From contig NC_087382.1 of the NCBI RefSeq assembly GCF_963675165.1, forward strand, positions 6,000,315-6,064,314: a stretch of DNA of 64,000 nt, written 5' to 3'. The notes below the pieces were generated by a model that made no database searches, had not been told where the DNA came from, and saw only the letters and a program-made list of their open reading frames with translations. Made by a program: the position numbers and the translations under genes. Below are positions 28,551-63,800 of this stretch, piece by piece; the first letter of the stretch is position 1, and each line of letters starts with the position of its first letter. The DNA comes from Halichondria panicea. Its lineage: Eukaryota > Porifera > Demospongiae > Suberitida > Halichondriidae.

Positions 28551-28593
<43 letters not shown>

Positions 28594-29605
28594 GTGTGTG
28601 CGTGCGTGCATGCGTGCGTGCGTGCGTGCAAATCAGCAGAAAATTTGACCCTTTGCAATTTAGGTTTTGCGGATTTTATTGTTGCGAATTGATCAACTGT
28701 CGCAAAGTTTGCAAAATGTTTAATGCTTGCAAAACATTCTAGTAATACAGTATAGATATAATTATACTCGGCTCCATGCAGCAAACAGCAAAAACCAAAA
28801 TACGACATGAGGTAGTAAAGAAAGAAATCGACATGCACACAGTTAACTCTACATTTACATAGGTGCCAACTGTCCCATGCAGATTTAGCATCCCTGTCCC
28901 TTGTCCCGAAAGGAAACTGCCGGATTTTCGATGTTCAAGGTTGCTGCTTCTGAGCTAGATTACTAAGCTCCAATAAAGTCAATAAAGCTTATCAAGCCTG
29001 GACAAGCTTGGAACGGGTGGTGGCTGATTTGTATGTCCTGTGAGTCGAAGGGGCTAGTCCTAGCTGAAAATAATGAGTTCTCCAGGCTTGAGACGTCCAG
29101 TCCGCCTGTCGATCTAGGATGAGGTTCAAACTACACGTACTGCTAGAATCTGAACAAAAACAGCTTTACCGTGACAAGAGAAACTTAGTTAATAAGTGGG
29201 CGCGGCTGACTTTCTCGTGCAAGTATAAATAATGACATTATGAGCTATTCAGTATAGCTATAGGCACAAAAGGAACAAAGAACAGCTAGCTATACAGAAA
29301 GAACCTACTAATGAACAGAAACCACAATAACATGCAATACAAAAGGAACAAAGGAACAAAGAACAACTATACAGCTACTAATAACACAATAACAGAACAG
29401 TATACCATACAGAAAGTAAAATTAACCACAGGAAATGAGCTAATTAACACAACTAAAAGTAAACACTATATAATTATACTTATTACTATACAAACATTTA
29501 CTGTTGTAAGGAGGTTGAAAATGCATAGTTGACCTGAGATAAAACTATTCTCTGTATTTCAAAAGAGTCGCCAAAAGAGTCGCCAAGAGAGCAACAACAA
29601 CCATA
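27928..29605. other. Spacer with a (TG)n microsatellite, no gene seen
   Basis: 28551-28630 is (TG)n grading into (cgtg)n/(tgcg)n. The ORFs through it are Cys-Val or His-Thr repeats produced by the microsatellite. Short aaaggaacaaagaac repeats occur at about 29268-29364. From about 29540 the duplicated block of the cysteine-rich gene begins. Confidence 0.55.
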
Positions 29606-35979: not shown

Positions 35980-36054
<75 letters not shown>

Positions 36055-39000
36055 CCGGAACAAGAACTAGTGAATCAGCGAGAAATACAGGTACATTGTA
36101 CAGTGTGCGGATTGTGATATCAGTGATATAATAATTATACGTGTACTTTACTCACTGACTGGCATGGATCATATCTCTCATTTAGTTTTACAGTGCTTTG
36201 TTTTGCAGTTTACTATTATCAGTTCCCAGGTCAACTCACTGTTTCCAGCTGAGTGCCTTGTTGTACTTTACTTATTTAATATTGTTGTATTTATAACATG
36301 TTTACAATATCAACCAGTTCCTGCATGTACACATGTATAATTTCTCACACAGTCTGTTGAGATTCACTTGCCATTGGACAGTTACCATGGCGTCCATGAT
36401 CCGAGGCTCCCCCAGTTGGCCCCGCCCATTCCAGTAAGCACACTCTGTGAGAAGACTACCACTTCTCAGCCGACCACACCCACCCCTCATGGTGATTATC
36501 TATTATGGTCACTCTACATGTATGTTTAAGCTGGTCACTCTCTATTATACATATACAGCCAGGTTAACTAATAGGCTCATAATACATGGCGTACATGCAT
36601 GTACATGTAGCGTGAGTTTCAACCTGTGTACATTATAGCCAGTGATGGTGTGCCTAGTAGAAACTGATTACAATGTAAATTGTACTATTTATTGTTATGT
36701 ACTGTATTTTTGTAGGTGAAGATTGTACGTACAGTAGGGTACAGACATAATTATAACTGATCGATATGTGTTATGTTTTGTATTGTAGTGCATGTAGGGC
36801 TCATGTTGTGTACTGGCACTCAGACTTTGTATAATCAGACACTCACTTAAATTTATACGAACTGTATGGCTGCACAGTTCAGATGCGATTGTCCGCCCAA
36901 CAACAGAAGCCTTACTCTAGTCCCCTGATCAATCTTTAGTTGGTAATTTGATTACCCTTTATTCAATTTCACACACACACGCAGCTCTTCTGTTGGCCCC
37001 ACGTACCCTTCATCACTCCCCTGTACGAACTCGAGGTGAACCCTCACACATCTCACACCATCACAGCTCTCCCATACACCCACGTCCCGAACATGCCTCT
37101 GATCGTTTGCTATGTTCACAAATAAGCATTCCCATGGACCAAATCGACGAAGAGGAGGCATCTCAAGTGAGTGTTGCCTCTCGGTCGTTCCCCTACTCTC
37201 AACGCAGCAGCATGGCTTCATCGATGTCCTCCATGCCCACTAACGAAGGGGAAATCCCTTACAACTTTTACCGGCCGGATTCATTCCAAACCCATTCCCG
37301 GAATGTATCCGAGACGCCATCTTTACCCCCATTCCACTGTTCGAGTACATCTTCAGCATATCATTCAAGAAACTCATCATTCGGTTCTCAATTTAGTAGT
37401 TCGTGTTTCGAATCTGATAGTGTTTTGACTGATATTGATTCTTGTCTAGCGGCGCACTCTGGTAGCCATGGAGATATCAAACATCCAATCAGATTGCAGG
37501 ATCCCCGTATTTTAAGACTGAGTGAATCATCACACATGTCATACACTTCTGAATGGAGCTTACGTCATCACATGAATCGACCTATCGGATTATCCAATCA
37601 ATCCCCGAACCTCGATGAAACACTTCAACATATGGAAAGTTTCGAGGAACGCAAGAAGCTAGCCAAACTCAAGACCTCTGAATGGATCAAGAGACAGTTG
37701 AATGTGTGTAGAGACTCTGTAGTGCAAGTTAAAGTGAGCTCCAAGACCAAACACGTAGTGCACTTCAATGTGAGGGCTGGGGACGTGATTGTGTGGGAGT
37801 TTGCCACCAAGAAGAAGGACATTGCCTTTGGTGAGCTATAATACCTGATTGTAATATTAGTGTTGAGTTTGTGTGTAGATAGTTAAGCCATAGCATATAA
37901 TGGTCAATAAGTCAATGGTCTACATGTCATGTATACCATTGTGAATTTGTTTTTCATTATTATATAATACGGTAGTGTGTTTGTGTGTCTGTGTGTCTGT
38001 GTACAGCTGCTCAAGGATCAATGAAGTGCAAATAAGAGTTTCTATAGGCTTCTAGTCATGTTTTCTTGGATTTTAATTCGTGGATTTGCAAAATAATGCT
38101 TGGTTCTCGAGTTATGCCTAGTTTTGCTTACTTAGAATGACATTGCAGCTTTTTCAGAAGAGTGCGTAGCAAATCTTGTCTGTGGAGTGTTGCTACTCTA
38201 CTTAGTAGTTAGCTCTGCACTAAAACGCTAGCTATTGGTAGCTGCAAGATGAGAAGAGAGCTGCAAGGCTCTGCTGATGCATCCACTATAATTTTAGACT
38301 TGGACTTTTGGCATCGATCGTTTTTTGAAAAATCATGGTGGATCATTACCCACTCTTCGAGTTTGCCTGTGATTCTGGATTCTCTGCCAATGCAGTAACA
38401 TAAATCAGTAATGCAAAAATGTTCATCAAGATGTATAATAAGTTGTGTATAAGCTATTGCTAATAGCTAGTAGCTTTATTATGTTATTTTGCTTTGACAC
38501 CTCCACCGAGGCATCAGCACCCGTGGTGCTTTCATTATGACCGTACAATTTTGTTTTAATGTATATAGTTATTGTAAATGTTGTGTCAAGATATTGGGCC
38601 GACATAAATTTTGTAGCGTACATGTACAAACAGATGCATGTACCTTACAGAGTAAAGAGTGTACATGTACCTCCCAGAGTACCTGTATGTACATGTATAT
38701 ACTGCACTGTCATCCATGTAGCACTGTCATCCATGTATTGCAATTGCTGAGTCAGTGGTATTTAACCATAATTCACTCTCTCTACAGGTGTACTGTTTGA
38801 AGCCACACAAGTGGCCACAGTGGACCCCAATGAAGCCACGGAAGAGCAGTGCCCCGAAGACAAGATAGTATCCATTCTGCCAATGTTCCGGATGAACACT
38901 CACACACGACCTGTGTTTGGCACACACACCACAACTCGCGACGGCGTCTACGAGATTGTCTTTGATAACACGTACTCTAGGTGAGGGTGTTTGTGTGATG

Positions 39001-39429
39001 TAAACATGTGTTGCATTTGTATAGTCGGTGAGAGCATCCATGCACGTACATGTACATGTAAAGACAGTACACTAAGTAGAGGCAGGATGTTTTGGGCATA
39101 TGTAGACTCATGATTCCATTTGTCAAAAAAATTAATGTTGGGGACTGAATGCAGGTGGTGCAATTATTAATTTCTCAGAGTGTACAAGGAGGTTAATATA
39201 ACATACATACATTTCTATAAGAATAATTATATAGGCATGTATGAATTGGTGTTTTTGTACCTTAATTATTATGTACACGGCTTCACCACTCACCCACCCC
39301 ACCCCCACACACCACACACACACTCACATGCACACACTTCTCTCTCGCTTCAGGTTCTTCGCTAAAGAGTTGTTCTACAGAATCACTACCCAACCTCTCG
39401 AACCAAACTCAAATTATTCGCAACAGTGA
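33205..39429 (+). CDS. GOLD-domain protein with long Ser-rich N-terminus
   Basis: Six exons are supported: 33205-33497, 36054-36090, 36353-36491, 36985-37830, 38788-38980 and 39354-39429. They encode 527 residues, all in phase, with TGA at 39427. The ATG at 33205 is preceded in frame by TAA at 33190. The first about 370 residues are low-complexity, rich in Ser, His and Pro (SSMASSMSSMPTNEGE), and probably disordered. A short charged helix follows (ERKKLAKLKTSEWIKRQLN). A GOLD domain occupies about residues 395-520: HVVHFNVRAGDVIVWEF, KKKDIAFGVLFEA, then DGVYEIVFDNTYSRFFAKEL. GOLD domains occur in p24/TMED8-, SEC14-like and FYCO1-type trafficking proteins and bind partner proteins or membranes. 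There is no signal peptide or membrane span, so it is cytosolic. Several acceptors follow CA-repeats. The closest family member is uncertain. Confidence 0.82.
35981..36052 (+). repeat. (CA)36 microsatellite abutting a 3' splice site
   Basis: An uninterrupted CA tract of about 72 bp is followed directly by the G that completes the acceptor of exon 2 (36054) of the GOLD gene. It replaces the usual pyrimidine tract. Confidence 0.9.
37965..38537 (-). mobile_element. Repeat family aatgaaagcaccgc, inverted copy in a GOLD-gene intron
   Basis: This is the reverse complement of the family at 31897-32433: it opens ggtagtgtgtttgtgtgtc and ends agcacccgtggtgctttcat. It lies in the intron between exons 4 and 5. 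The segment at about 38115-38150 provides the empty site for the insertion seen at 11894-12156. Confidence 0.72.
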
Positions 39430-39694
39430 GCAGTTCTTTGAAATTACTTGCTCTTGTTACGTACCATTCTTGTTATTGCTTAATTAAATCTTTTTATATC
39501 AGCGCGCACAACACTAAATCTCTGCAAATGTCTTATATCATGATTAGCATTTTTAGAACTTAGTCAATTGAGGTAGTATAATTATGCGTTGTCACCATTC
39601 TCTCATCAGATTTAAATGATGATGTACGTGCTGCCAATAATAATAACATTATTAATTATCACCAACATCTGAATGAAATTTTAATTTTTTGCTA

Positions 39695-40081
39695 TACCGT
39701 ATATCTTCTGACAGCAAAAAATAATTATTTTGGAAATTGTCTGGGTATAATTGGAACAGATTTTTATAGAGCATGAGAAGTGTCCGTAATTAGAACAAGC
39801 AAGCAGCTGCATGCGAGCTAGCTAAGTTTTAGGTAGGATTGAATAGTTGCACTAACTATCTAAAACTAGCTACTCAAAGCTATCTAACTGCAGCACTCTA
39901 AGTCTTACTTGCCGTCTATGAATGGTAACTCAACTTTTCAAGGTAGATTGTCCAGATATTTAGAACAAATGTAATATATTAAGTACTGGAGTGTCCATTG
40001 TATTAAAACAACGAAAATTGCCCAAAAGAGTGTCCGGGGTAATTAATTAGAAGTGTCCGATAAATTAGAAGATATACGGTA
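39695..40081. mobile_element. TIR element, taccgtatatcttctgac ends
   Basis: taccgtatatcttctgac at the left is inverted as taaattagaagatatacggt at the right. Interior motifs (tgtccg, attagaa) are shared with the ends. It is non-coding and the first of three elements packed end to end. Confidence 0.65.
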
Positions 40082-40098
40082 CCTATAATTATATTATG

Positions 40099-40450
40099 CA
40101 GTAGACTCTCGCTATATTCCGGCTTTCTGAAGTATATAGCCGTATACTGGGCTGCCCCAAACTAGGTTTTCAATGCACGTTTATTACGGCCAGATTTGAT
40201 GTTTTGGGTGTGGTTTTTGGCGGATAAAATTGGATACAGAGCTAGCAGAATGATTCGATCATTATCTTTCATTGTCCTCGAGACAGAACCACAATCATTA
40301 AATTCAAGGTACATGTATATATTATATGAGGTAAGGTCATTTTTTTAGCCATGGCTATTTTCTAAAAGATGTATGGCCAACTTGCTATTCCGGCCAAGTT
40401 GCACTGTCCGTATAATATAGGATGGCCGGATTAATTAACGAGAGTCTGCT
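40099..40450. mobile_element. TIR element, cagtagactctcg ends
   Basis: cagtagactctcgctatat and ttccgg at the left face ccggattaattaacgagagtctgctg at the right (imperfect). No ORF is present. Confidence 0.62.
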
Positions 40451-40668
40451 GTGTAGAGGGTTATTTTCGTATGGTGGAAATTTTCGTATTTAGAGGATCA
40501 TCCAAAAATTAAAACTGCAAAAATTTTCTACAACAGGTCTGTCTACATCACTATTCTAAATTCTGAATTGTACGAATAATTATTTAGAACACGACGGTAA
40601 TTGTGGGTAGTTCATATATAATTATTATACGAAAGTTTGCACTTATGTACGAAAATTACTCGTTGGCT
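40451..40668. mobile_element. MITE related to the taccgtat..agcggg family
   Basis: agagggttattttcgtatgg at the left and cgaaaattactcg at the right, with internal ttttcgta/tacgaaa repeats, resemble 6501-6678. It directly follows the previous element. Confidence 0.5.
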
Positions 40669-40946
40669 GCCTTTTCTTCAGGTGGTTGTTATATAAGAGC
40701 TGCATGAAAGGCTCCGGTATGCAAGAAAAAAAATTATTACTCCTTATTTTATGCAAATTAGAACACTCAATTATATATATTAAAACACAGACAACAAAAC
40801 AGACGAAATAAGTGCACTGAATAGTATAATATAGCTATGGTCGGAAATTGATTCATGAATCGCTGAGCGGTACACATAAAATAATAGTATGCGGAGACAC
40901 ACACGAACACACACGCAGTTAAAAATAAGTCCGAGTGTGCAGAATT

Positions 40947-43900
40947 TCAACTGTGGAAAGTGATACCAGGAACAACGTATATTGAGGTACCTGCAGAGGG
41001 AGAGAGCATGGGGTAAAATAGTAGGAGTAATTATATAGTCATGTGACAAGACATAATTATAACATTCATTTGTGGGGGCTTGACAGAGAGTGAAAATGCA
41101 TGTATGGGTACATGCATAATTATGTACATGTAATTAAACCCTTGCTGCATAACGTTAAGACCCACACAAATATGTTATTATCTGTAGCAAAAAGTTCATA
41201 AATTCTGTACGTAATTACACTGTACATAGCAATGAACGAGGGAGTTGATACTATATAGTCTAAGAACCAACCAGGTAAAAGATTAAATTAGTAAGCACAG
41301 TGAACCTGTTATACAATAGTGGTCACTCTTGCATTATTGGATGGTATATAGAGGGTATATAGAATAACAGAGGCTAAACATATAAACGAGGTAGCCTATG
41401 GTGACCACAATAGATTTCACTGCACATGTATACATGCACACCCTGACTCGACATAGTTTTAGACTTACTGTCGGGAATAGTGTTCACAAACTTGGGAAAC
41501 AATGAAAAATACTCGTGCTCAAGGGCGTCATTTGCGGAGATCCTCCGAGAGGGTATCAACTGGATCATGTGAGTAGCCAGGTCACCTGCTCTCAGGGACG
41601 TCGACAGCCTGGTGTGTGGGGGGGGGGGGGGAGATTGGTATCAAAATATGGAAAAATGACTGAAAATGTTATCATGCATTAAAGCCAAGTATAGGCATGT
41701 GGGCTACACGTACACTTAGAACTGTGTGCTATCATAAGTACATTTATCTCGAGCACTGCAGACTACATAAACATGTACTGTACTAAATTAATGATGCTCA
41801 CATTGGTGACACTGCCTCCAGCTGTCTTGTCGGGCATATCTTGAAGTGATCTGTATGGTGAGAAAATGGTGACAAATCGATCAGGTCAGTTTATAGGAGG
41901 TCTTACATGGTTTGTACTCGGGATAGGACGACACTCCCGGCCACGTCTCCTCTGTGGGGGTGCCTAGGACCTGTGGGGGTACATAATTATGAGTGTATCA
42001 TTATTAATAAGCTGTGAGTATATACATGTACACTGTAGTATCGAAACTATATTCCATTATCCTAATGTTTGCAGAATCAAATCAAGCAGATACATGCACA
42101 CTTGAAACAAGATGAAACCTACTCCATGGAATGATTATAGATACTTTTATAGTGCACTTACACCCCATATCTTATTGAGTTGATCTGGTACTCCCTTGAT
42201 TCCTGGGAACAGTGGCTTCCCCGTCAGCATCTCCACAAATATACAGCCAACACCCCTGTGCATGTGAGTGCTCAGTTTATAACAGCTCATTTCATGATCT
42301 TAATGGCCACTACTGAAGAAAAGCCAGCTGTGCAGGCACCTAAGTGTACAAAGCCTATGCACCTCTGAATACTTGTTCCCTAAAGATGTCTGAGTTAATT
42401 CCACTACTTGAGGATCGATATACAATACCAGCTAACTCAGGATATAGTTTACACGTACATACATGTACAGTGTATGTAAAAGCTGGTAAGGCATCATCTA
42501 AGCACAAGTAGTCTGTCATGGTAAAGCATTATATGGAAATGGTCATCAGCTTAATAATTATCTTACCACATGTCCAGAGGTGTGGAGTAATCAATGGAGC
42601 CCATGAGAACATCAGGCGGTCTGTACCAGAGTGTGACCACCTCATGAGAGTAGGTATGTGTCGGTACTGACTTGGCACGGGCCAACCCTGTGAGTGTGTG
42701 TGTGTGTAGGGGGAAGGGGATCCGGAGGTGATTGTGTGACAGCTACTGTATAATGTATATACAATTATGCAGTGAAACGTTGCGAATACAATTCACAACA
42801 GGTGTTCCTTATTCAGAGGAAACGTTTGGGATAGAAGCACTGCATGTCCTTTGTAGAGGAGTATTCAAGATACATCCTCAATACATACCAACTAACATAC
42901 TAGACATTTCCTGGTAGAAGTTTTCTGTAACTAAAGAAATATACTCAATTAACGAGTGCAGCGTGTGTTTGCCAACAAATGTGCGCAGGAAGCTATACCA
43001 TACTAGAAGTCTGTCTCTACCAGTACAATAGTGTATCCACCATGCATCATGTACTTTAATGCATATACAGCATTCCATTTTTATAGACTCCACAATTCTG
43101 TCTCACTGGCCAGATACCGCACAAATAAAACCAAGTTGCTAAGCACCAACTAACACCTGTTACCTAAATGTACTAGTAGGAATTGATGCTATTGCAGTCC
43201 TGACTGAAACCCGTGCAACAGTTCTGAGACTCAAAGGAAGCTTTATAAGATATGTGAAGGCACTGTAGGTCCCACCTAGTTAGTTACAAAACAACACCTC
43301 GACAAAGACAACCTCCGTATAATGATGATCAAAATTATAATTTCAAATTTTTAAGGGTAAAGTTCCACTGTATATGTACGTATACAGAAGTACCGTATAG
43401 CGGGTAATTATTCGTGGTTGTGAGCAATATTTAGTCATTTTGTGGATAATATTTTCGTGGTTGCTGCTTGCACTGCAGGTAAAGGTAGGCAAGGTCGCTT
43501 CATTCGTGGGTAAAATATTTGTTGTCAGACCTTCAACCACGAAAACCACGAATATCTTGCACCACGAAAATTACCCGCTGTACGGTACTGGTACCTGATT
43601 AATCATTTATACTTTGTCTAGTTAATGATCTTTACCAACACTCACCAAAATCAGCCAGTTTCAGCTCCCCAGTGTTGCTGATGAGGAGGTTCTGTGGTTT
43701 CAGGTCTCTATGCAATATCTTCCTCTTGTGACAGAATGCCAGTCCCCGTAGCAACTGGTACATGAACAGCTGTACATTGTGTGGGTCCAATGGTCCGGGA
43801 TGCTTCTCCATATAGCGACTCAAGTCCGTGTCCTAAGTAAGTAAGGTGTACAGTGTGTATGTACATGTACATGTATATAGAACACGGCTGACACATGTAC

Positions 43901-44326
43901 ATGCATGGCCGACACATGTACATGCATGTGCCATTGTTACTAACTGTAGTAGGTATAGGAGAGTTTTGGCTACTTAAGGATTGAGTATGTGTGGCGGGTC
44001 ATTGGGGCGTGACTTACATTGTATTCCTATTAGGACTACCCCCATCAATACATACCATCAAAAGTATTAGCACAAAATGTACATACAAGTGTATACACAC
44101 AATTAAATTAATAGGAGGAGCACTTGTTGTTAGAAAAACACCTTAATGCATAATTAAGTATAATGGTACAGTAAGTGTACAGTAAATGACATGTACATGT
44201 AGACTGTGCACACTGTCCTAACTCACCACGCATTCGAAGACAAATGTTAGATTGGTGGCAGTGTGTACGATGTCGTGCAGCGTCACAATATTAGCATGCT
44301 TGAGTCCTTTGAGCAGAGAGGCTGTG

Positions 44327-44386
<60 letters not shown>

Positions 44387-46748
44387 CGTGCGTGACAGAC
44401 AATGATCCGAGAATTTATTGGAATCAATTAGCATGTACAGTTTGTAATTCGAAGGCAGCTACAAAATGACTAGTATACATGACTGTATGTATATACTATC
44501 ACAGTCATTGTACATGTATGAGCCAACAATTACATGTAAACTACACATGTACATACTATACTCTAATTACAAGGGAACAAAGAGTACAGCTGGTACATGA
44601 ACATAATGTTTAGGGACTACCAGCCCGTAATGTTCTGTACTATACAGTTAATTTTTTTATTACAACACACCCTCACCTTCTCTAATGGCTGTGAATGGTG
44701 TCCCCTCTTCGGCGTTGAGACGTATCTCTTTCATAGCAACCGACTGTCCGTTGATGTTACTGATACCGCGGTACACAGTCGCGTACGACCCCTCCCCCAG
44801 AGCTTCCAGCTTATGGTATGTCTCTAGGCGACCAAATGGAGATGATGCCTGGAATAGAAAATTGCAATAAACTATTATACCAAAACTGGATGGTTACCTG
44901 CAAAGGATGCCTATACACCTACTGAAGTCAAAATCATTATACAAGCTACGTGTACAACACATCTAACATCTAACGAGAAATGTACATGTAGCATTACAGA
45001 TTTACAGATCTGTCAAGCAAATAAACAATTCAGTCTTATTCTTCAAAACATGTTTTCCCACGTGTACTTCCTCATACAAGTAATCAATGTTGCCCCCCAA
45101 ACCACTGACTAGATCAAAGCAGCTCACTACCAGTACAGCTGACCTCTTCAATGAGCCACACTTCTCATCACACCTGTACATCTTGTATACAAACAGCTTT
45201 AGGCCCACAAAGTGTTTTTGGGATTGGCGTCTACAGTGTACATGTGTTACAGGGCAGACTGCCAACTGTTAACGCACACACCCACATTACCATGCACCCG
45301 TCAACAGACACTAGGATTAAGTGGGCTTCTATTTTCACTGTCCCAGCTGTAAGTTCAGCCAGCTAGTAATAATGGTATTCAACAACACTTGTATTGAAAC
45401 CACTTGACTACATGTACACTATTGTGAAATGCACCAAAACGGATGTCCCTCTATTTAATCATTAAGAGAAATCTTCTGCATAATACCATACATTATACTT
45501 ATAGCCTCCTTTAAATTTAAATTATATTTAGGGGACAAAGTCGAGTAGATAGTTACAGTGTTCAATATAGATAACATACAACTTTAGACCATAAATTATA
45601 CGTGTAATTATACACTGGTTGCAGAGTCTTCTTTGCGTTAATATACAGCCTACAGTGTAGCTTGCTATTCTAAATAATAGTTATACGCTGAGTCTAAGGT
45701 CTCTATGGGATTATGAGACCCTGAGGGCCCGAGGCTGTCGCATCCCGAGCGTAGCAAGACATGTGATTTTTTGCTCCACTGATCTCATAGTTACAGTTTT
45801 ACATACGTGTACATAAAATTAATGAGCTCTCAATAAGTTTACCTCAGAGTATCTCCTCCTCGGTATTGATCCCGTGGACCCGAATGCCTTGGTAGGGGGT
45901 CGGATGGGATGGGAGGGGCCAATGGTGGCGTACGAGGGGGGTTGGCTAGACACAGAGGTTCTTTCCGTGGGGATTATCTCTTCTGTGGGACTAAAGGCCT
46001 GCAGAGAGATAAAAGGAATTAATGAACTATGAACTATTGAGAATGGATCCCACTATATTATACATGTACAGTTACATGTACACAGTTCCAATAACAATGT
46101 TTTCTACATGTACACAGTATGTAGAAAAGACAGTTCACAGATTTTCAACAAGCCCCATGAATATTTCAGTCGCAAAACGCGTAAATGCACTACAGTTCAA
46201 TTATTATAAACAAACAGGATCGAGGCTGCAACTCTGGTAAAATGTTATCCAGGGTTGTATTAGCATTTGGTGCATACAATGTACAATGTGGGTGCGATCT
46301 CAGACAGCCTAAAAACACTAAATTTCTTAGAGGGGAGATTCCCTAGACCTCCCTAAGATGTGCGATAGCACAGGGATATACGTACAGCGCTCTCCCCACT
46401 CCAAATTTGCATTAACAAAAATACAAAACATTATTTTTTGATCCTTAAAAATTATGCCTGCTACACAGTTCTATTAAGGTAGCTACTGTAAACACGCTGT
46501 ATAATGTACTCACCAATGATTTTGGTCGTTGTGTTCGTCGTTTACTGGCAGGTGGTCTCTCGACAGACCCAGCGGTGGTGGGGCTGATCTCACGAGGGGA
46601 GGGGGAGGGGTCTTTGGGGCTGGGACTGACACTAAGTCGCAGGAAACCCTCCGATAGTCGTCTCTTGAGTTTCTTGATACGGCTCTCTTTGAGGATGTTC
46701 GTCTCACTGTGGATACGCTTAGAGGGGGCTGTGTGTGTGTGTGAGGGT

Positions 46749-46822
<74 letters not shown>

Positions 46823-51410: not shown

Positions 51411-51637
51411 CACCCGCTATATAAAACTGCTTGCAAAGCTACTCTCTTGGTAGCGCTAATAGTTGGGAGCTCAGCTATAAACAGACTATGAATATTGTGC
51501 TAAATAGCTCAGCTAGTTAGACACTACATATACAAATGCACTTCATGTGTGAACTCAGAATGGAAGAGATCGTTACATTACAAATTGAAAAAACCGGCAC
51601 AAAGACAGTAATTAATTAAAGCAAATTTTCTGGCACA

Positions 51638-54600
51638 CTATTGTAAAGTTTGTTCAGGTGCTCCCTTGAAGTAGGAATATATAAACGCTCTAGATATGCA
51701 CACTAAATGTTCCAAGTCTTCAACTTCATTTTCTAATCCAGACATGAATTTTTTCTGAGCAATAACGAGTTTTTGCATCAATTCTCTGTGTTGAAAATCG
51801 AGAGCTTCTTTAACAAACATTTCCATTTTCTCTTTCTTTAAACAAATCTCATCTTGTTCTTTCTTGCGAATATTTTCAGAAAATTCTTGTCCGAGAAAAT
51901 ATGACATGTAAGCAAAGTCTACTTCATCCCAAACTTGAATGATTCTGTAGTGGTCTTCAAGCATGCCTTCATAGTATAGGTCGTGGTTATGCCTGTAGAA
52001 TGTATGTGCCAAGTGGATTGGCATGAGGGACTAGTAATGCCACGAAATATGGTTATGATACTGCAGACATGCCCTCATGCATCATTAAAAGACATGCACT
52101 CAGAGTGGGATAGTTATGTGTAAACAATAATAAATTATTAAGGATAATATCTACATAGTTACTGGTAGTTGAGAGAGTAATAAAGACAACTTAAAACAAG
52201 TTCAATTTTTTTCTCTCCATGCACTGCGAGTAAAAAAAAAGGTCTGTAGCCACATGCAAGCTATACACTATAGAACGTAGAACGTGTAAAATACTTCACT
52301 ATACAAGGGACAAAAGTTCATAACCACACCCCTCACCTCTCGTCCGCTTCCCTTTTCAGTTTCTCCAGATGTTTGCCTCTCTCCTGTTCCAATCTCTTTG
52401 CCTTGAAAGCTCTCTCCTCATCCAGCACTTGCTGTCTCTCAGCCTCAGCTTCTTGGGCATGTCTTTCAGCCTAGGGGGGGAACACGTGCCAACAGACATC
52501 ATAAAGTGCATTCTATAATTATAACTATAGTCATGCACAGTAACAATGGAACCTACAAAAGGGACACTTTTAGGAAGTGTATACGTATAGAAAGACAGTA
52601 ACTGTCTTTCTAAACTTCCTAAAAGTGTGTCATGAGGTGCATAACCGTATCTCGGGGAGTTTAATTGCAGGGGTTACAATTTCTACACACAAAAAAACAC
52701 ACTTAACAAATGCATTCAACACATGAATTTCAAAGTAGGTATTTCAAAGTAGAATCGTATAGACAGCCAAACTGCATGATGACATACCTCAGCCAGCTGC
52801 TGCCTTCTCATTCTAATGGCATCACGGGTATCTAAACTCTGCTCCAACTCATCCCTCAATCCCCTCGCCCTCTCCTCTCTCTCTCTGTCTAGTCTCTCCC
52901 TCTCAATGGAAATCTCCTCTTGCGTCGATGAGTCTGGTGTTTTGTCAGCCTCCTCTTCTGTCAGGATGAAGAGGTGTTTCGACCCATTGCGACTAACCCC
53001 CCTCTGTCTGGTTTGTATTTTGGAGGGCTGTTCAGTAGTTTCTGGGGTAGAGGGACGGGATATACTCATCTCAGGCGGATTCACGGATTTCTATTGAGTG
53101 GAAATGGCATTTGAAAAGGGAAAAAGAACATGATGCTCTATAGAAGAATAGCAAATTTTGGCAGTGACTCGTGAATTTTGATTTAATATTGTCGTAGCAT
53201 GCAAATTAGACTCAACGTACCAGAAAGTCTTCTGTCAGTAATCGAATATCGTTGAGCTCACTCTGACAATCCAACACCACCTGCGGTCGCTGTGGACTGG
53301 ACACACCCGACAACAACTCTCTGCTCCTAGCTACACCACTTGCCATAGAGCTATGTACTCGACTGGCACTATTACCAGAGTACGATAACTGAATTTTGGC
53401 AGCGGCTGATTGAATTGCTCGTGAATGAATTGCAGAATTTTTCGTTCGACGAAGTTTTGAGGAAATGGACACATGCCGTGTTGAAATTGACATATTTGAT
53501 TGGGAAATATCATCACCGGCCTTACTCGTTTCGTCTGTTTCTTCACTACTAGTTGAGAGTTGCTTATCTACCATTCTCTCTGCAGGGAAACTTACATGTA
53601 CTTTGTTTTGGATTTTTCTGCCATCAGTAACCTTGCGAGTTTTGGTGGTGGTGGGAGAGAGTAGAGACTCTCTTTGTTCGGGTTCTGGATTCATAAACAT
53701 ACTTTCTTTCAGATCTTCTTTTACTGATAGAAGGACATTGTTTTCAAGTTTTGACATCCCCTGTTTCATTCGATCAAGTTTCGGCTGATTCAGAGAAGAT
53801 TGGCCATCACCTGTATCAAGAAGTAGGTAACTAAGCAGAAACACTTAATGAGCGATGTAATACCATAATTATATAGTAGGTCACTTTCGTTGGTGCATAT
53901 TTTTTATGGCTATGCCACGTTAAATTTACTTTAAATATTCGTATGTACAGCTCAGAACGGTGACATAGAACCTCCTATTGTGCTTTAATAATTTACAGAT
54001 GTTACTCCATCTGCTCTCCTATACAACATGAAAATACAAAAATCTACATTTAACTAACAATAATGTATTGCATGCATACCTGTTGAATTCCCAGTGCTAC
54101 GGGAGCTATGTACTTTAATAAGTGGAGAATCATTGTAGAAGCCACTCAAATCTTCTGAAGCCAGGAGAGGCTGTTCGCTATCCAGTTCAGTTGAGGCGTT
54201 TGAAGTTCGACTGTTTTCAGAGCCACTCTTGGTTTGTACACGATTCTCTGAAGGTTCTTGCGAAGGTTGTGTGTAGAAGCCAGTCAAATCTTCTGAAGCC
54301 AGGAGAGGCTGTCCACTATCCAGTTCAGTTGAGGCGTTTGAAGCTCGACTGTTTTCAGAGGCACTCTTGGGTTGTAAAAAGAGGCTGTCACGATTCTCTG
54401 AAGGTTCTTGTGAACATTGTGTGTAGAAACCAATTAAATCTTTTAAATCCAAGACAGGCTTTTCGCTATCCAGTTCAGTTAAGGCGTTCGGAGCTCGACT
54501 GTTTTCAGAGTCACTCTTGAAATTGGTGTGTAAAGAAGAAAAGTCAATACCATCACGATTCTCTGGTGGAGGTGTGTCCAGAGCAGATCGTATCTCATTC

Positions 54601-57257
54601 ACTATGAACTGTACCTCAGCTATATCCACTGAGCTCACGTTGTCCCCATTGGCAGCTGTAGAATTAGGAAAAAGAGTAAATTTGCATAATTATGGAAAGT
54701 ATATCCATGGAAGAGTTGCATGCAAAATTGTTAGCTTAAATGTAATAAAATTTCCAACATGTAGAGTTCATGGCACAATTCAATTCTTCATAATAACAAG
54801 AACAATTCCAGTTGCACAATCACGAACAGGCATTTCACTATCTTCAATCAATACACAGTCACACTCTTGAATAGTTCTTGTCCACAGTGACACATCATAT
54901 CTGTCTGCATTAACTGTCCCGACATAGTAGCATCCAGGCTTGAGAACTCGGAGAATATTCGGGAGGCAGTCTACATCACACTGTCCCTTTCCAAACACAC
55001 CAGCACACACTATGCTGTCGAAACTGTCAGCATTGTAGGGTAGCTCAATGTTGAGATCAATCACTAGCAGGTCGGTATATATTCCCTTCATCTTTGCTTC
55101 TTCGAGCATCTTCTCGCTGACATCACCGCCATAAAGTTGGATAGAATCAGGGGAGCAAGCAGAAACCACTGATTCTCCAACGAGGCCTGTTCCACAACCA
55201 GCATCAAGAATCTTATGCTTCGTCGTTTCATTTCGAGTCACAAGATATTTATGGTAGCTTTGCCACTTTATAGTTACACTGGTATGAGCTTTGTAGCCTA
55301 GGGAGTCCAGGATGTCAGCCTCATAGTGTCTAGCCCACTCGTTGTAGCTGGTAGAGCCTCCATGCTTTAAGGTGAGGGCCAAGAAATGCCTTGCTCTCTC
55401 ACGCTCTGTTGTGTCTTTTAGTATGCTTTTAACAGCCATATCTGATCCGTACTGTAGAGACCGCGGTAGCTTTTATATAGAGACTACATGTACTATAATA
55501 GACCATGGGCCGGGGAGGTCCGACAGGCGGTGCAGCTCAAGAAATTAGCCTCTGATCAAAAACATACGACGTGGGCGGATAATTATTGTTCCTGAGCTGC
55601 ACCGCAATAATTGGAACAGGTTGTTTTTTACTAATACAATGCGTAGGTGGAGCCTGTGGGCAATACACCCACGCAATCATGATGCTACCGTATACATGTA
55701 GTGATCAGTCTTATGCTGTGACTTACATCATAGATACTAGTATCTATGCACTTAGATGGAGACACTAAAAAGCACTATAGGGTCTAATACAAATGGGAGG
55801 CATTTCACTACAATATGAATGCTATTAGTGTTCTATTATAGACTTAGTATGATACACTATTTACCTGACTCAGCCATTGTTTGCAGTCGTCTCCGACTCT
55901 CCATCGACATTGCCACATCCAAACGCAGCAGGTGCTTGAGCTGATGTCCAAAGATAACCAGATCAGGATAACGATATCGAGTGGGTGGCTTCGTCCTCAC
56001 AAAATCCTCACTTGGCTTGTTCCTGAAAGACGGTCGCCAAGTTTGAAGGTGATCTTTCACAGTATGAAAAGATGGAAGTGCAGTGAATTGGTCATCAGGC
56101 AAACTGTAGGTGGATAATTTAGGAATTTTGTCGTAATACGGTAGAGTATAGTGTAATGATTGGCTCAGATGATTTTTTGGGTTCAGATATCTAGGCAGTG
56201 ACACTGAAGCATTCAAGTTGACAACAGTGAGTTTAGAACATTTTTCTGGATTTCTTATCGTGCTGCTTAAATTTTCTGACGCTTGCAGTATTTTAATCCA
56301 CTCGCAAGTTAGCTCCAGTAATTGTAAATGCCTAGAGATTTCTGTTTTGCACTTTCTAGTTGAGTAATCTTGCAGAGTCTCACACTCAATCGTAACCTTT
56401 GGTAGTGATATTTGATTGCATGCATTATCGCCTTCTAAAGATAGCGCTGATTTATAGTGTTGTGGATGCAACATTTTCCCTTGCAGTGAATTCACTGGCT
56501 GCAGTTTGTTCTCTGCCGCCTTGCTGTGTGCACTGACGTCTTCACTAGATTTTTCCACAAGGTGAGAAGAAGTGTAGTTATTGTTTGGCTCAAAATCGAA
56601 AGCAACTACTTGGTTAACTAATGGAATGTTAGGGTGTATTTTTCTGAGACCTGATCTACTGCGAGAGTATGTCCAGTCAGTGTTTGGGTCAGTGGCATGA
56701 GTAGTACGGAGGTTATCGCTATGTTTAGTGTGGTCGTGATGACCATGGTGAGAGAATTTGCTTGTACCACCAGCTAGCATTGAAGTGTTGTGGTGGTATG
56801 GGTTGACTTGTCTGAACATAGGTGAATCCGTAAGTACTGTGTGACTGTCCTCAGTTGCTTTATGGTTTTGGGTTAAAAGTTTCCCATGGGTTTTTATAAC
56901 AGCAAGTTTCAAATGTGACTTTACTTTCTCAAATTTCGTTTGTTTCACACTGTACTCTTTCCTCGGTATATCCCACCATTGTTGAGTGTGAGCATCGCTA
57001 CTTCTCTTGTGTTGTGCATTTGTAGATTGAGGTAACTTTGTAACTTGTAGGGGTGGTAGTGACTTTGATAGTTGCCCTTTCAGTGAACGGTTCTTTGATA
57101 TTGGAGTAGCTCCTGTCGGCTCTTCTGTGCATGTCCTCTTGTGTGGTGCTAAGAGTTTTGCTTTGAGCGAGTTGTTAGGATGAAAATTTCCAAACAATGC
57201 GTTTCTGTGATAGCCCTGAGGGTTTGCTGGATTGATGTACGATCCACTTGCAGCCAT
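51638..57257 (-). CDS. Large coiled-coil protein, unrecognised
   Basis: Six exons are supported: 57257-55865, 54655-54080, 53810-53221, 53090-52788, 52470-52337 and 51992-51638. They give 1,116 residues, in phase throughout. Residues 1-464 are basic and polar with little order (MAASGSYINPANPQGYHRNA). Exon 2 encodes three repeats of about 45 residues built on SENSR..NA.TELDS..P.L and DL.GFYTQ..QEPSENR. Exon 3 is Ser/Thr-rich. Exons 4-5 form a long charged helix (RERLDREREERARGLRDELE; RAFKAKRLEQERGKHLEK), i.e. a coiled coil. The final exon continues helical (ENIRKKEQDEICLKKEKMEM). No signal or membrane segment is present, so a cytoskeletal, centrosomal or ciliary scaffold is a guess. Exon 2 has no usable ATG, which supports joining it to exon 1. 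The alternative is that exon 1 is a separate gene ending at TAG 55857. A methyltransferase gene lies in the first intron. Confidence 0.7.
52563..52631. repeat. Perfect-type hairpin in an intron
   Basis: gacacttttaggaagt and tagaaagacagt are followed by actgtctttcta and acttcctaaaagtgtgtc, giving arms of about 30 bp with almost no loop. It lies in the intron between exons 4 and 5 of the coiled-coil gene. It may be a minimal foldback element. Confidence 0.7.
54780..55439 (-). CDS. METTL27: METTL27-like SAM-dependent methyltransferase
   Basis: This is an intact single-exon frame of 219 residues. The N-terminal YNEWARHYEADILDSLGYKA matches the METTL27 (WBSCR27) opening. Motif I for S-adenosylmethionine is ILDAGCGTGLVGE (about residues 76-88). 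An acidic residue follows in LYGGDVSEKMLEEA, and the post-I region reads FDSIVCAGVFGKGQ. A later strand is VLKPGCYYVGTVNADRY. The length fits the family. The fold is a class I Rossmann methyltransferase acting on an unknown substrate, presumably in the cytosol. The gene lies wholly inside the first intron of the coiled-coil gene on the same strand, with no intron of its own. The ATG at 55439 is the first in frame. Assignment to the family is firm; strict orthology is likely but untested. Confidence 0.85.
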   Translation of the reverse strand: MAVKSILKDTTERERARHFLALTLKHGGSTSYNEWARHYEADILDSLGYKAHTSVTIKWQSYHKYLVTRNETTKHKILDAGCGTGLVGESVVSACSPDSIQLYGGDVSEKMLEEAKMKGIYTDLLVIDLNIELPYNADSFDSIVCAGVFGKGQCDVDCLPNILRVLKPGCYYVGTVNADRYDVSLWTRTIQECDCVLIEDSEMPVRDCATGIVLVIMKN

Positions 57258-57717
57258 TGGTACGTGTGCTTTGATGGTATCTATTTATAATTGGTGTGAT
57301 GACTAACTTTATTTAGAACTAGTATACTGCTTCTAAAATGTGGTGTGAAAGAATTGTCATATCTCCATGGTAAAATTAACAGCTCTATAATTATACATCC
57401 GGGTGTTTATAGAGAACGTGCAAATCAGTGATAGTTGTTGTATTGTTTACACCTTTTGATGAGGTACGTGTTATAATTTTTATGTCAGTATGATATAAAA
57501 AGTGCTTAGTCACTCTGTTTGTTATTCTGAATCCATGCATTGTTAAAATTTCAATACAAAAAATCCCTGTACAGTTTCGTGAGCTCGCTAGCCTTGGATC
57601 TCACTTTCTATAAAATAGCAATGATACGCCCTTTCACGTAAAGTTTACTATAACCACGAGGTGTGTGCATTTTTTAGAAGCAAGACTCGAGCTCGAGACA
57701 TTCTACTCAAGCTCACA
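57258..57717. other. Intergenic stretch, no gene seen
   Basis: This lies upstream of the coiled-coil gene and the YJU2 remnant. It is AT-rich, and no ORF or element can be supported. Confidence 0.5.
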
Positions 57718-58110
57718 ATGGGCGAAAGAATAAGTATTACCCTCCAGACTTTGATCGTGTAATATAGGTTTTGAGTAATTATGTAATTGAGACAAGAGCG
57801 TTTTGTACCCTGCAAGCAGAGCATCTGGAAGAAAAGGAGGAGAATGAGGCTCTCGAAAACAGGGCCAAAGAGCTAGTCACGAAGAGAAATGGATGTCATA
57901 GATGCTCTGGAAGATATTCTACATACGAATGCCCACAAAGCTATCGCCGATGAACTTCTAATTGAGCCAGAGAAACAAGAGCTGACCCGACAGGAGAAAG
58001 AAGATCAGGATTTGATCAAGAAGATATTCTTTCGCAGTGGCATAAACAGACCGGACGATGAGGAAGAACCACCGCCTGCAAAGATGGCTAAGATTGCCTC
58101 ACCGTCTTAG
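57718..58110 (+). pseudogene. YJU2: Decayed intronless copy of YJU2/CCDC94
   Basis: It starts ATGGGCGAAAG and then, one base out of frame, reads NKYYPPDFD, the opening of YJU2/CWC16 splicing factors. A large deletion follows, removing the zinc-binding region. The sequence resumes at SNYVIETRA, then AEHLEEKEENEALENRAKEL. One extra base near 57888 shifts the frame, and it continues EMDVIDALEDILHTNA and LTRQEKEDQDLIKKIFF to a TAG at 58108. These segments match the conserved YJU2 middle and C-terminal helical region. YJU2 acts in the spliceosome at the first catalytic step. The lack of introns and an AATAAA at about 58176 suggest a retrocopy. It cannot encode a working protein. Confidence 0.72.
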
Positions 58111-59470
58111 TACAAGCTGCATGGCTGGCTTTGTGGTGAAAAGAAAAAAAAATCAATCAACTCCAATTCTTCTAAATAAATTTATGTTTGTTGCTGTTCA
58201 CAGTCGAACCGCAATGGTTCCAGCGCATGCTCCTATGGGGAGTTTTATTTTCTCATAAATATATTAATGAGCTATTCGGTAGCATTTTTTTATAACTCTC
58301 TTCCCTTTGCAGTTTGTTTCCTGCTTCCTGCACCAATCTATTATACACATGGCAGGAACTAAATATAGCCACAAAGCCGCCATGTGGCTTGCTTAGAAAC
58401 TTCAACACTAGACAAATTTACATGCCACAGCAAACTGAACTGACAAACTGTTGCAAAGGTATGAGACGAATTTGAACATGTTCAGTGCTATCTTATAGGA
58501 TTGATGAACATCAATATGTAATTGTTTTTTGTGTCGATCCATTGAGAGTCGAGAAATGCATCGTTGAAAATGCTGTATAAAAAACCACAAAATAGTATAT
58601 ACTAGTGAGAGATGTGAGCACACAATAAGCCACATTTTGTGTATTACATCCAACAGATGTCCTCCTCAACACATTCTAAGCATCATCCAAATCAGTCGTA
58701 CTTGTATTCTGTGTGGTACGAAAAATATGCTATTATTACAGGTCAAAAATTTTTTTAATCAGGAATTGCCTAAACAGACCACTATATATGCTTACCCCAC
58801 TGTAGAGAAGCTCAGCTAACCTACCCAGCTTATTTAGTATACCTAGCAAGTGGAATAAACCTGTAATGTTACTCATAAATTATTCCTGAACATCCAACAT
58901 TAACGAGCAACAGGTTAATTAATCTCACCGTTATTTGCCACGTAATAGCGAGTTTTTAAGCATTTCTAAATGTTAGCAGCAGTGAGATACAGCCATTATT
59001 ACTGTGGCTGTGGACCAGGATGTACTTCTGGTGCATTTGCAGAGAGATTGCTGAAACGAAAGAGCCGGAAATTGAATTGGACTCAGACAGCGAAGACCAG
59101 TGACAGTGACAAGGAGAATATAGAGACAAAAGTCATCACTGGCCTAGAGTAAAAAACGATTTGATAGATATGCAAACATGACTGAACATTTAACCATAGA
59201 TAATGTTTTAACTATGCTCTTTGTATTATGATATACTGACAATGTAGTGCCATCTACAAAAGTCTACTGACAAATTGTTGCAAAGAGAATAACTCAGTGA
59301 GCAAAGGAATGTATTTACTCCATGGTTGATCTCATTTTTCGATGGAATTGGAATCAACAACTTGTGAAATCGTAAACATCGTCAAAATGAACAAGACATA
59401 ACAAATTGTGGATCTGTACATATGCACTCAGACAGAGACAACGAATCAGTTGTCCAATATTCACCACGCA
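58111..59470. other. Intergenic stretch, only one weak ORF
   Basis: 58970-59152 is a 60-codon plus-strand frame (AERLLKRKSRKLNWTQTAK) without clear family, splice or start support. The rest shows no gene. The promoter of the sushi-domain gene should lie near its 3' end, but no element is distinctive. Confidence 0.4.
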
Positions 59471-60799
59471 ATGGATAAAAACCCAGTGTATGAGTTTGAT
59501 AGTTACAGTGCTAAGTCCCCGCTATCTGACAGCAGAACCAATGTACTACAACCTACAAGGTCCAAGCAAGCCACAAGACCTAAGAATTCTTGTCGGACAT
59601 GTGCATCTGCAACCTTTGCCGTAGTGGCTGTGCTTGCTCTAATGATTCTTGCTGGAGTGATAGTCACAGTTATTTTGAGACTACAGAATGCAAAATCTGA
59701 GTCTAACACAGAGTTTGCTTCACTGAAACAGGAGATGGAAAGTTTGAAAGAGTTTATGATTCAACAAGCGAATGTATCCAATGAACTGACAAAGGTTATC
59801 CAAGTTCAAAAAAGTGAAATTGATTATCTGAAGCAACATTTAAATGAAAGCACTATCGAGTTACAAAGTGAGATTGGATGTTTGAAGCGAAACCTGAATG
59901 AAAGCATTTATAACTTACAGACACACATTCAGACATTGAGTCAGAATTTCACTACTGAAGTTACCATTGTACAACAATTTGTGATGGCAAAGATTAATGA
60001 AACAAAGTACAATGTGACCGAACAAATTAATATCCTCCAGACATCTTCAAGTGAGAGCATACAAGAACTGAAATTGCTACTTTGTACTTTAAATGTGACA
60101 CTAACAGCTGAGATTGATAATGTCCATTTGGATTGTATGAAAAAAGCTAACGAAACACAGTACAGCATTTATAATGTGACACAAGAAATTAAAATCCTCC
60201 AGTCATCTTCAAGTGAGAACATCCAAGAACTGCATTTGTTACTTCGTGCTTCAAATGAGACATTCATTTCTGAGATTGATAGTGTCTGGGAAAGACAAAA
60301 CCAGAATGTTCTCGACTGCATGATAAAGGTAAACGAAACACAGACTGAAATATACGAAGAAACGCAAAAAATTGATGATCGCATTGATCTACTTGTTGAG
60401 AATTTTACGTCAGATGTGGAAGCAATCCAAATTCAAATTAGCACTATCCTGAACACCACTGGCCTACTTGGTAAGTATGTAAAATACACTAGTATAATAT
60501 AATAGTCGGCTAGAAATTTCTATAGATAAACTCTATATCCATTGACCCGTACACAGATGAACAAATTGTTGCGAATATTACGTCAGATGTGGAAGCGATC
60601 CAAAATCAAATTAGAGATATCCTGGCACGGAACACCACTGGCTCACAAGGTTTAACAATCATGCATTACCGTACTATTGCTAATTATATTTATGGTACAA
60701 ATCTCCCCAAAATATAAAACTTTACTTCTATGCATTACACACACAGTGACACACACACGCACACGCACACGCACACGCACACACACACACACAGTGACA

Positions 60800-60830
<31 letters not shown>

Positions 60831-63800
60831 ATGCACACACACACACACGCAGAGGGACCACTAACTTGCGAAGGACTTTCCCTACCCACCAATGGAGGAT
60901 TCAGTATAGAGGCAGGACCTAACTCACTGAGTGGTGGACTGGGCTCAGTAGCTACCTACACATGTGACCCTGGCTATGCTCTAGTGGGACAGAGGACCAG
61001 GACTTGTGAGGACACTAACGGAGGAACAGTCACCATAGGAGCATGGAGTGGAGAGCGTCCATTTTGTCAAGGTTATTTGATGTAATTGATTTAGAGGTAT
61101 ACGTGTGTATCGATCACTGTACCTTTAAAGCAAAACAGTGCCAATGCACTGCCGCAGTATCAATACAGAAGTCTATATAATATACTGTTATTTTCCTTCT
61201 TATCAGAAATACTTTGCTTGGAGCCTCCCACACCAGTAAATGGAGATGCAGTATTGAGTAGCCAAGGGATGAGTGTGGGCACCACTGCTAACTACTCCTG
61301 TGACTCCGGGTATGTTCTTGTCGGCCAGGCAATCAGGACTTGTGAGGATGTTAATGGAGACATAATTGGAAGATGGAGTGGAACTACGCCGATTTGTGAA
61401 GGTACAAACAGTCAACAAAAATTAATACAGAAACAGAATTAAGAATTTGTGTACGCAATATCCATTGTGGCATCATCCATTAACATTTTTTGTAGTATTT
61501 TCTTGTAGACATTATCTTATACAACCACAATGTCAAGTTTCCATATCATATACCATTGCACATATACAGTGATTATTAGATGCCAGCAGTTGACTCATCT
61601 GACTAACGGAGAAGTCAGTGTTTCCATTGGCACACTCGGAGTGAACCTTGGTGTGGGAGCTGTAGCTACCTACTCCTGCAGCAATGGCTATGGACTAGTG
61701 GGACAAGTTACCAGGACGTGTGTTAGTGATGGAGGTAGCTCAGGAATATGGAGTGGGAGTGAACCAACGTGTGAAGGTTTGTCTAGTGTATACCAGGCTA
61801 GGATTGAATACTATAATGAAACCTTGAGCTCCGATAACGGATCTTTTGTCTAAAATTAATGTCAGTCTATATACTGGCTACATAACATTTTAGAATATCC
61901 AAAAACTATAGAGCAAACGCTGTACATGTGCATGTGTATGCTGCTATAATTAGTCTGACCTCTCTTGTTATTCATAAAATTGAGTGAATAGCTATAGAAT
62001 CCCTGAAGGAGTACTGAAGTATGTAAACAACTGCTGTACATTTGTACAAATATTCACAGAGGTGATCACATGTTCACCACTTGCACCTCCTGTCAATGGA
62101 ACCCTCACGTTCACTCCTGGTGTTGATAACAGCAACATTGGACTGGGATCAGTGGCCACCTACTCCTGTAACCTCGGCTATGTGCTAGTGGGACAATCTA
62201 TAAGAGAATGTCTAACTACAAATGGTGGAGCTTGGAGTGGATTGGTCCCTATATGTGAAGGTATCTAATGTACCATCATTACCACGTAACTAGATGTATA
62301 AGGGATTTGCAATGTCATACATAGTGATTATGTAATGCAGTTTGTTAAAAACATGTACTGCTATCTTTGATAAGTATTGTGTAGCGTGAGTGTGCACCAG
62401 TATTTAATTTAGTCTTGCGAGCAGCCGTCGAAGGGGGAAGGACGTCTGGTAAAACCCGCCGCTTTTCCATGAGCCCATTTTGGAATGTGTCGCACCAATC
62501 AGATTGCCAGATTTTAATATTTTGGGTGGGGTTTTACGTAACCTGTAGAAAGGAAATGTGCACTATAAAGAAAAGCAGCTATAGATCTACATGTAGACGC
62601 CAGAGTGTAGAAGCCTAAAAGCTAGACTAGCTGCTGCTATTTGATTTGTGACAGTGTTGCTGCCATAAAGCTAGGTTATAAGGAGCTCAAACCCAAACAA
62701 AAGTTAGCTGTGTGAAGGAAATGTGTGCAGATCTGGAGACGTGTTGCTTATCTGGGAGCAGCTTTTGAGGGAACAGTGCGTCCTGTAGTGGGACTCTGTA
62801 GCAGACTCAGTATTATGACATGTTCTGACAACATTTAAATTATAGTGACATAATAATTAATAATCATACACATATCACATTCCTGAGTATCATGGAAAAG
62901 CGGCGGGTTTTACCAGACGTCCTTCCCCCTTTGACGGCTGCTCGCGAGACTATATTTAATTAAGGACTGTCCGAAGATGATAATCATATAATTATTATGC
63001 AGAGGCTGTCTTCTGTCCAATACTAACGGCCCCAGGCAATGGTAGTGTGACTATCAGTTCTGGTGTCAACCCCCTCAGTGTGGGGTCAGTGGCTACCTAC
63101 TCATGTGACCCAGGTTACGCCCTCCTGGGACCCCCCACCAGGGCTTGTGAGGACCCAAACACTGACTCAGTGGGAACATGGAACGGAACAATGCCAGATT
63201 GTGAAGGTGAAGTTGTGATCAAACTGTCTCTAAGTGAATACCCTGTGGTTATTAGATGCCAATAATTCAATAGGGGATCAAACGTTGGTCTCGCTTAAAC
63301 GCCTCACCCTGGAACCTCAGTTAGGAATTTGAAGAAAAGTGTCCGTGTAGTGTTACTTTACACAATGTGATTTCTAGTAATCTTACTTATTGTACTAATG
63401 CGTAATACTAGAATATTTTGCGAGGTCAACATATGCGAATTTATATGCAAGTGTTGATCACTTCGCAAACGTAAAATTGCAAAATCTAAATTAGTACTGG
63501 TAATTAAACACGATTGCCAGAACGCAATAGTTTAGATTGCAAAGATTCAATTATTCTGCTGATTTGGCTCATTCGTGAAGGTTTTTCACCAGCAAGTAAT
63601 ATATAGCTACGGTACTTTGAACGTTTATTATTTCTCACAATTTATTTTGCTCGATGATTATTGTGTTGATTTCTTTTATAAGGTGTGTAACTCATTTTCA
63701 TAGTGATTCTTTGCCCTGAGATCATGGCCCCTGTTAATGGCACCCTCATCATTTCCACCCCCTCACCAACCCAACCTCTTGGTGTGGGCACCACTGCCAC

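Follow-up and report, generated by a model that had tools for sequence, protein, structure and literature searches.

CA-repeat tracts at predicted intron 3' ends of the sponge Halichondria panicea

CA tracts at the locus

The stretch analysed here (the window; C6:6000315-6064314, 64,000 nucleotides (nt) of the 131 Mb, 39-contig genome of the sponge Halichondria panicea) contains exons of three genes that concern us: a gene with exons matching the GOLD_2 profile (PF13897), a CDK gene and a sushi gene, the third exon of which matches PF00084. The subject of this report is the CA-repeat tracts found at the 3' ends of their introns, next to the acceptor AG. Perfect dinucleotide runs of at least 10 nt were listed, and the long CA/TG tracts of the window lie at 28553, 35981, 44329, 46730-46821 and 60737-60848. 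Read on the CA strand, four of these five immediately precede a proposed exon (Table 1). The distance from tract to acceptor is 0 bases for GOLD exon 2 and CDK exon 2, about 6 bases for CDK exon 5 and about 3 bases for sushi exon 3, as the original prediction had said in giving a range of 0-6 bases.

Table 1. CA tracts of the window and the exons adjoining them (positions within the window).
Feature	Position	Strand	Basis or remark
(CA)27 with lead-in CGCACG and end TGCACAG; intron 3' end before CDK exon 5	44322..44400	-	(TG)27 on + at 44329-44382
CDK exon 5, CDK14-18-like, PFTAIRE motif, 95 nt (not a multiple of 3)	44227..44321	-	gene model, coding score, CDK16 alignment
(CA)33 TCACACACCCT (CA)7 G; intron 3' end before CDK exon 2	46729..46821	-	(GT)33 at 46755-46820 and (TG)7 at 46730-46743
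CDK exon 2, N-terminal region	46514..46728	-	coding score 32.9 (coding potential only); gene model start 46717
(CA)7 CTCACAG-type acceptor tract of CDK exon 7; pyrimidine-rich stretch immediately upstream	42688..42709	-	
CDK exon 7 (end read by eye)	42567..42687	-	inside CDK16 alignment
Imperfect CA array (60737-60848); intron 3' end before sushi exon 3	60737..60852	+	
Sushi exon 3	60853..61071	+	gene model; PF00084, 1.2e-8; phase equal to neighbouring exons
(CA)36 (35981-36052) then G; acceptor tract proposed for GOLD exon 2	35981..36053	+	unsupported
GOLD exon 2 candidate, 37 nt	36054-36090	+	coding score only 5.5; ~1 kb upstream of ATG at 37134
Short CA tract and CGCAG before GOLD exon 4 (GOLD_2, PF13897)	36970..36984	+	
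CA-rich stretch, then ordinary pyrimidine tract TTCTCTCTCGCTTCAG, before GOLD exon 6	39305..39353	+	
Exception tract, no good exon adjoining	28553..28629	-	(TG)18 at 28553-28588; flanks match dispersed repeats

The joined translation of the CDK exons aligns with CDK16 (PDB 9r2i, 3.3e-99) without gaps across the junctions TAIRE|ASLLK (exon 5) and ADFG|LARAK (exon 7), and this homology fixes the predicted acceptors of both exons behind their CA tracts. The tract of sushi exon 3 contains three earlier CAG triplets, with the AG ending 106, 58 and 46 nt upstream, all of which would be out of frame. GOLD exon 2 may be no exon, because it is short, has a weak coding score and lies well before the ATG. 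The original claim that CA microsatellites serve as acceptor tracts in three unrelated genes is therefore partly confirmed: homology fixes the acceptors of CDK exons 5 and 7, coding score speaks for CDK exon 2 and the profile match for sushi exon 3, and GOLD exon 2 is unsupported. Similarly, its count of four tracts in five, with 28551-28630 as the exception, stands as far as position before a proposed exon is concerned, but includes the unsafe GOLD case. The shorter tracts it placed before GOLD exons 4 and 6 and CDK exon 7 are present, except that a pyrimidine tract separates CA from AG at GOLD exon 6; at CDK exon 7 a pyrimidine-rich stretch lies just upstream of the CA tract.

Excess of CA tracts at intron 3' ends

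The tracts were then examined in 264 kb (~0.2% of the genome), consisting of the window (W) and five contiguous 40-kb stretches (S1-S5) from contigs C1-C5. Long open frames served to train the hexamer coding scores. A self-trained gene model, in which donor weights were used, nothing upstream of the acceptor AG was scored and dinucleotide repeats were neutral, yielded 481 exons. We retained 211 introns flanked by exons of coding score at least 8, of which 199 measure at least 55 nt. A windowed criterion applied to the 24-nt intron 3' ends defined the CA-rich class, and the corresponding 5' position and mid-intron windows served for comparison.

CA-rich ends were found at the 3' position of 13/199 introns, at the 5' position of 0/199 and in 17/2209 mid-intron windows (odds ratio (OR) 9.0, p = 2e-7). 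With the window left out the figures are 11/170 and 8/1593 mid-intron (OR 13.7), and stratification by sample gives an OR of 9.5 (chi-square 39.7). Eight settings of the model, including the base setting and ones with repeat hexamers scored at +1 or -1, gave ORs of 7.9-11.3 with p from 2e-8 to 1e-4. The density of CA runs of at least 8 nt is 1.35 per kb over the final 50 nt of introns, compared with 0.28 at mid-intron and 0.21 over the initial 50 nt, and the excess over mid-intron climbs with run length, from 1.4-fold for runs of at least 4 nt to about 7-fold for those of at least 10 nt.

The effect also depends on the strand. The same tracts were read on the CA strand and on the TG strand, and an exon of score at least 8 starting within 30 nt was scored. 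Of 45 tracts of at least 5 CA units, 14 are followed by such an exon when read as CA and 2 when read as TG (binomial p = 0.004); for the 30 tracts of at least 6 units the numbers are 10 and 0 (p = 0.002). Outside the window they are 9 and 2 of 34 (p = 0.065) and 6 and 0 of 22 (p = 0.031), respectively. Predicted acceptors outside the window, too, are enriched in CA tracts, in a strand-dependent and length-dependent manner. The pattern is statistically sound within the sampled part of the genome; one named example, GOLD exon 2, is unsafe. The original prediction had proposed comparing acceptors genome-wide with other intron positions and the reverse strand: the enrichment is there in the 264-kb sample, but the genome-wide counts of (CA)nG are confounded by repeats (see below). 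Of the two alternatives it offered, a splice code tolerant of CA or retention of the tracts, both fit the excess, the strand bias and the dependence on length.

CA-bordered exons outside the window

RAD50 provides a second case fixed by homology. An exon follows (CA)26 ATTGTAG, and its translation, joined to that of the previous exon, aligns gap-free with RAD50 (1.5e-34), which settles this predicted junction. In a ClpP gene, a tract of about (CA)30 ending in CCTAG is followed by the start of the aligned ClpP core; this junction is likely rather than fixed. One HMG-box exon and two WD40 exons also lie behind CA-rich acceptors. Some of the CA-bordered exons belong to basic enzymes. The reading frame would not survive the skipping of CDK exon 5 (95 nt) or of the 188-nt ClpP exon, and both are therefore presumably included constitutively. 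At position 18449 of S2 (L014, about 8.4 kb) an AC tract adjoins an internal CCCTAA telomere-like array.

Composition of the acceptors

The distribution of A+C content at intron 3' ends shows a minor second maximum at 21-22 of 24 positions, and under a strict cut (20 of 24) ends rich in A+C are more numerous than C+T-rich ones (11/199 vs 5/199). The CA tract ends 0-7 nt from the AG in CDK exons 2 and 5, sushi exon 3, RAD50 and probably ClpP. The pyrimidine content upstream of CA tracts shows no clear rise (0.56 vs 0.51 mid-intron, from a tract-start finder that failed on the longest tracts). Branch-point motifs, taken from the window introns only, are compatible both with distant branch points and with branch points inside the tract.

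A likely CA-type splice signal

The position and strand of the tracts, their excess and its dependence on length, the lack of a common intron sequence and the use of the tracts before conserved CDK and RAD50 exons can all be read directly from the DNA. They likely reflect a CA-type splice signal. The fuller reading, to which we give somewhat less than an even chance, is that a minority of introns (about 5-6% in our sample, unevenly spread between regions) finish with a CA-repeat tract, or one rich in A+C, that acts as the acceptor signal, with hnRNP L as a possible reader. The tracts would arise separately through repeat slippage and would be retained because, being free of G and of AG and having alternating C, they still support acceptor choice. 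The CA or A+C-rich tract would occupy the usual place of the polypyrimidine tract, the branch point would lie upstream of it or inside it, and the next AG would be used. A CA-binding protein, most likely the genome's own hnRNP L, may coat the tract. The reading of the tract as a signal, the identity of the reading protein and the location of the branch point are inferred.

Several observations weigh against this reading. The CA-rich 3' ends are unevenly distributed (W 2/29, S1 1/17, S2 5/46, S3 0/37, S4 5/36, S5 0/34), with S3 and S5 together contributing 0/71; 3/13 of the CA introns belong apparently to one gene, RAD50, and 2/13 (63 nt in S4 and 2674 nt in S1) look doubtful by eye. The p-values are therefore optimistic, as they overstate the independence of the cases. 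Random points in the samples, coding sequence included, reach an exon score of 8 in 663/4000 cases (17%), so the 31% seen on the CA strand is only about twofold above the random rate, and the 4% on the TG strand is below it. At a looser cut of at least 18/24, C+T-rich ends are the more common (23/199 vs 14/199 A+C-rich). A pyrimidine- or C-rich stretch is kept beside the CA tract at CDK exon 7, GOLD exon 6, the 62-nt intron of S2 and the 133-nt intron of S4; CA need not, therefore, replace the pyrimidine tract. Genome-wide, a CA tract stands before TTTCAG 3 times and a TG tract 12 times, which argues against CA tracts being placed upstream of ordinary T-rich acceptors. Finally, the introns are the noisy predictions of a home-made model trained on little DNA, which missed CDK exon 7, started CDK exon 2 11 bases inside the exon and read through the ClpP tract. 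These faults would favour an artefact of the gene model as the source of the excess, but such an origin is highly improbable: the model scored nothing upstream of the AG, the result was stable in all eight settings, and the CDK and RAD50 cases are fixed by homology.

A serious competitor, nearly as likely as the reading of the tracts as acceptor signals, is neutral seeding combined with tolerance. The acceptor consensus tends to (C/T)ACAG, and CACAG could seed slippage; the resulting tract would be harmless and would drift in length, no protein being required to read it. The base consensus at predicted acceptors agrees with this proposal (T or C at -5 in 74%, A at -4 in 42%, C at -3 in 44%), as does the persistence of a pyrimidine-rich stretch at some CA acceptors. 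TC runs of at least 8 nt are also commoner at 3' ends (3 vs 1 mid-intron). A death-domain-like gene on C1 has four recent copies with introns that are 99% alike and CA tracts of differing length before the exon, which again fits free drift. On the other hand, TA runs are likewise free of AG and have no 3' excess, and no CACAG abuts the tracts of RAD50, of ClpP or of position 10962 in S2, which ends in CCCCTTCAG. The four gene copies (L033, L034, L037 and L048, C1:0.40-0.99 Mb) were named by eye and have no Pfam match. L034 is less similar to the other three in its exon (95%) than in its intron (99%), which hints at fast coding change.

If CA tracts do function as acceptor tracts for several percent of introns, they would constitute a sizeable exception to the polypyrimidine rule in an animal lineage, made of fast-changing repeats. 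They would offer a natural test of the importance of the U2AF site and of the effect that microsatellite length has when essential genes are spliced. Exons behind CA acceptors could also be misplaced by gene finders that were trained on pyrimidine tracts. Among the matches listed from the open-licence literature there is no paper on CA-tract acceptors in any invertebrate.

Pairing across the intron

Lin et al. are said to have described AC/GT-repeat introns of zebrafish in 2016 and to have traced the class to early vertebrates; the present case is in a non-vertebrate animal. If the sponge introns were of this type, pairing between a 5' GT repeat and the 3' AC repeat would take the place of U2AF2. 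In PMC9198270, zebrafish introns that carry dinucleotide repeats at both of their ends are said to form a fold spanning the intron and to need no U2AF2 for splicing. The sponge introns resemble them in having AC repeats at the 3' end and, when all introns are taken together, GT repeats at 5' ends: TG runs occur at 0.83 per kb in the first 50 nt of introns and at 0.15 in mid-intron, although the windowed test at 5' ends is weak (4/199 vs 12/2209, p = 0.04). These TG runs just after the donors mirror the CA runs at the acceptors, but are found in different introns. A CA run at the 3' end is present in 11 introns, and in no case is it accompanied by a TG run at the 5' end; about 0.5 would be expected by chance, so this excludes bridging as a rule and not as an occasional case. 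By a looser criterion, a single CA intron of 128 nt in the RAD50 region has both repeats, with a predicted duplex of -22.1 kcal/mol. In 11 CA introns, pairing of the CA tract with the intron's own 5' end is no stronger than with the 5' ends of other introns (mean fraction of others as strong, 0.65). Zebrafish-type bridging thus appears mostly excluded here, and we regard it as a very unlikely explanation of the CA tracts.

hnRNP L as a candidate reader

A search for the hnRNP L/PTB family returned two loci, one on C4 and one on C15, each with several exon matches, as well as weaker matches at other places; no exon match exceeded the whole-protein cut-off, and 1/14 control genomes also matched. 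The best PDB match of the C15 gene (C15:5649453-5651728) is hnRNP L (8.6e-30), compared with 6e-13 for PTB, and by this homology the genome has an hnRNP L gene. The C4 gene is PTB-like, as judged by eye only. One of the seven acceptors read at the C15 locus is of the CA class. It belongs to an exon of 122 nt (L050:1198-1319) that encodes part of an RRM; as its length is 2 mod 3, skipping would shift the frame. Since (CA)17 begins 12 nt after its donor, this exon lies between CA tracts. Mammalian hnRNP L reportedly regulates its own gene, and by analogy we would guess that the 122-nt exon is a possible self-control switch.

Mammalian CA-repeat and CA-rich intronic elements are reportedly bound by hnRNP L, work attributed to Hui et al. 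in 2003 and 2005. The sponge tracts are similar in being CA repeats of variable length in introns near splice sites, in a genome with an hnRNP L gene. The mammalian elements, however, are described as regulating alternative splicing, whereas the tracts described here stand directly at the predicted acceptors of apparently constitutive exons. PMC3165201 reports that hnRNP L silences exons in mammals when bound near splice sites and enhances them from farther downstream, which also speaks against the fuller reading; PMC5974433 describes CA-rich cryptic exons blocked by hnRNP L. The analogy drawn in the original prediction is therefore right in so far as the gene exists, but it does not predict efficient use of CA acceptors. 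Efficient acceptors behind CA tracts would run contrary to the mammalian rule, or hnRNP L would not be bound there. It is improbable, in our estimate, that the CA tracts form a genuine second class of acceptor tract, used in constitutive splicing and recognised positively by hnRNP L in a reversal of its reported mammalian silencing, with hnRNP L controlling its own gene through the 122-nt exon. According to PMC13174678, splicing in human cortex is affected by repeats of variable length that precede exons, with AC repeats tied to hnRNP L and GT repeats to TDP-43. The sponge tracts resemble those repeats in lying within 100 bp upstream of exons, but the bias near the acceptor is towards T-rich units in human cortex and towards CA in the sponge.

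Origin of the tracts

There is no pairwise match among the 13 CA introns, and only the long S1 intron matches repeats widely. Together with the variation in tract length between gene copies, this suggests that the CA tracts appear to originate independently and to change length quickly. It also makes it very doubtful that dispersed repeats or introner-like elements that terminate in (CA)nG carried the tracts in. In favour of such an origin stand the inspected (CA)11G sites described next and the window tracts at 12275 and 32363. Genome-wide, (CA)11G occurs 1240+1244 times, compared with 255+254 for the pattern read backward, and a shorter (CA)nG form has a similar asymmetry (1684+1636 vs 519+533). 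We inspected 20 (CA)11G sites, the first 20 separate ones from C1:148 kb onward among 100 listed, near duplicates being skipped. Four of the 20 precede a coding exon, all of one gene family, and 13 of the remaining 16 have, by eye, a downstream flank in common with another of the 20. For these reasons the genome-wide asymmetry, confounded by dispersed repeats, was dropped as support for the acceptor signal. A count of donor-plus-TG patterns was also discarded as uninformative, being inflated by many start points within one tract.

Within the window, the CA tracts at 12275 and 32363 lie in a dispersed repeat, and the flanks of the tract at 28553 also match dispersed repeats. The repeat at 12150-12330 and 32250-32440 combines a short CA tract with a CTCGCTTGCGCATGCGCACCGAGG-like core and has copies in several samples. 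A dense (CA)11G array was seen at C1:16-20 kb (L001-L008), near the start of the largest contig seen.

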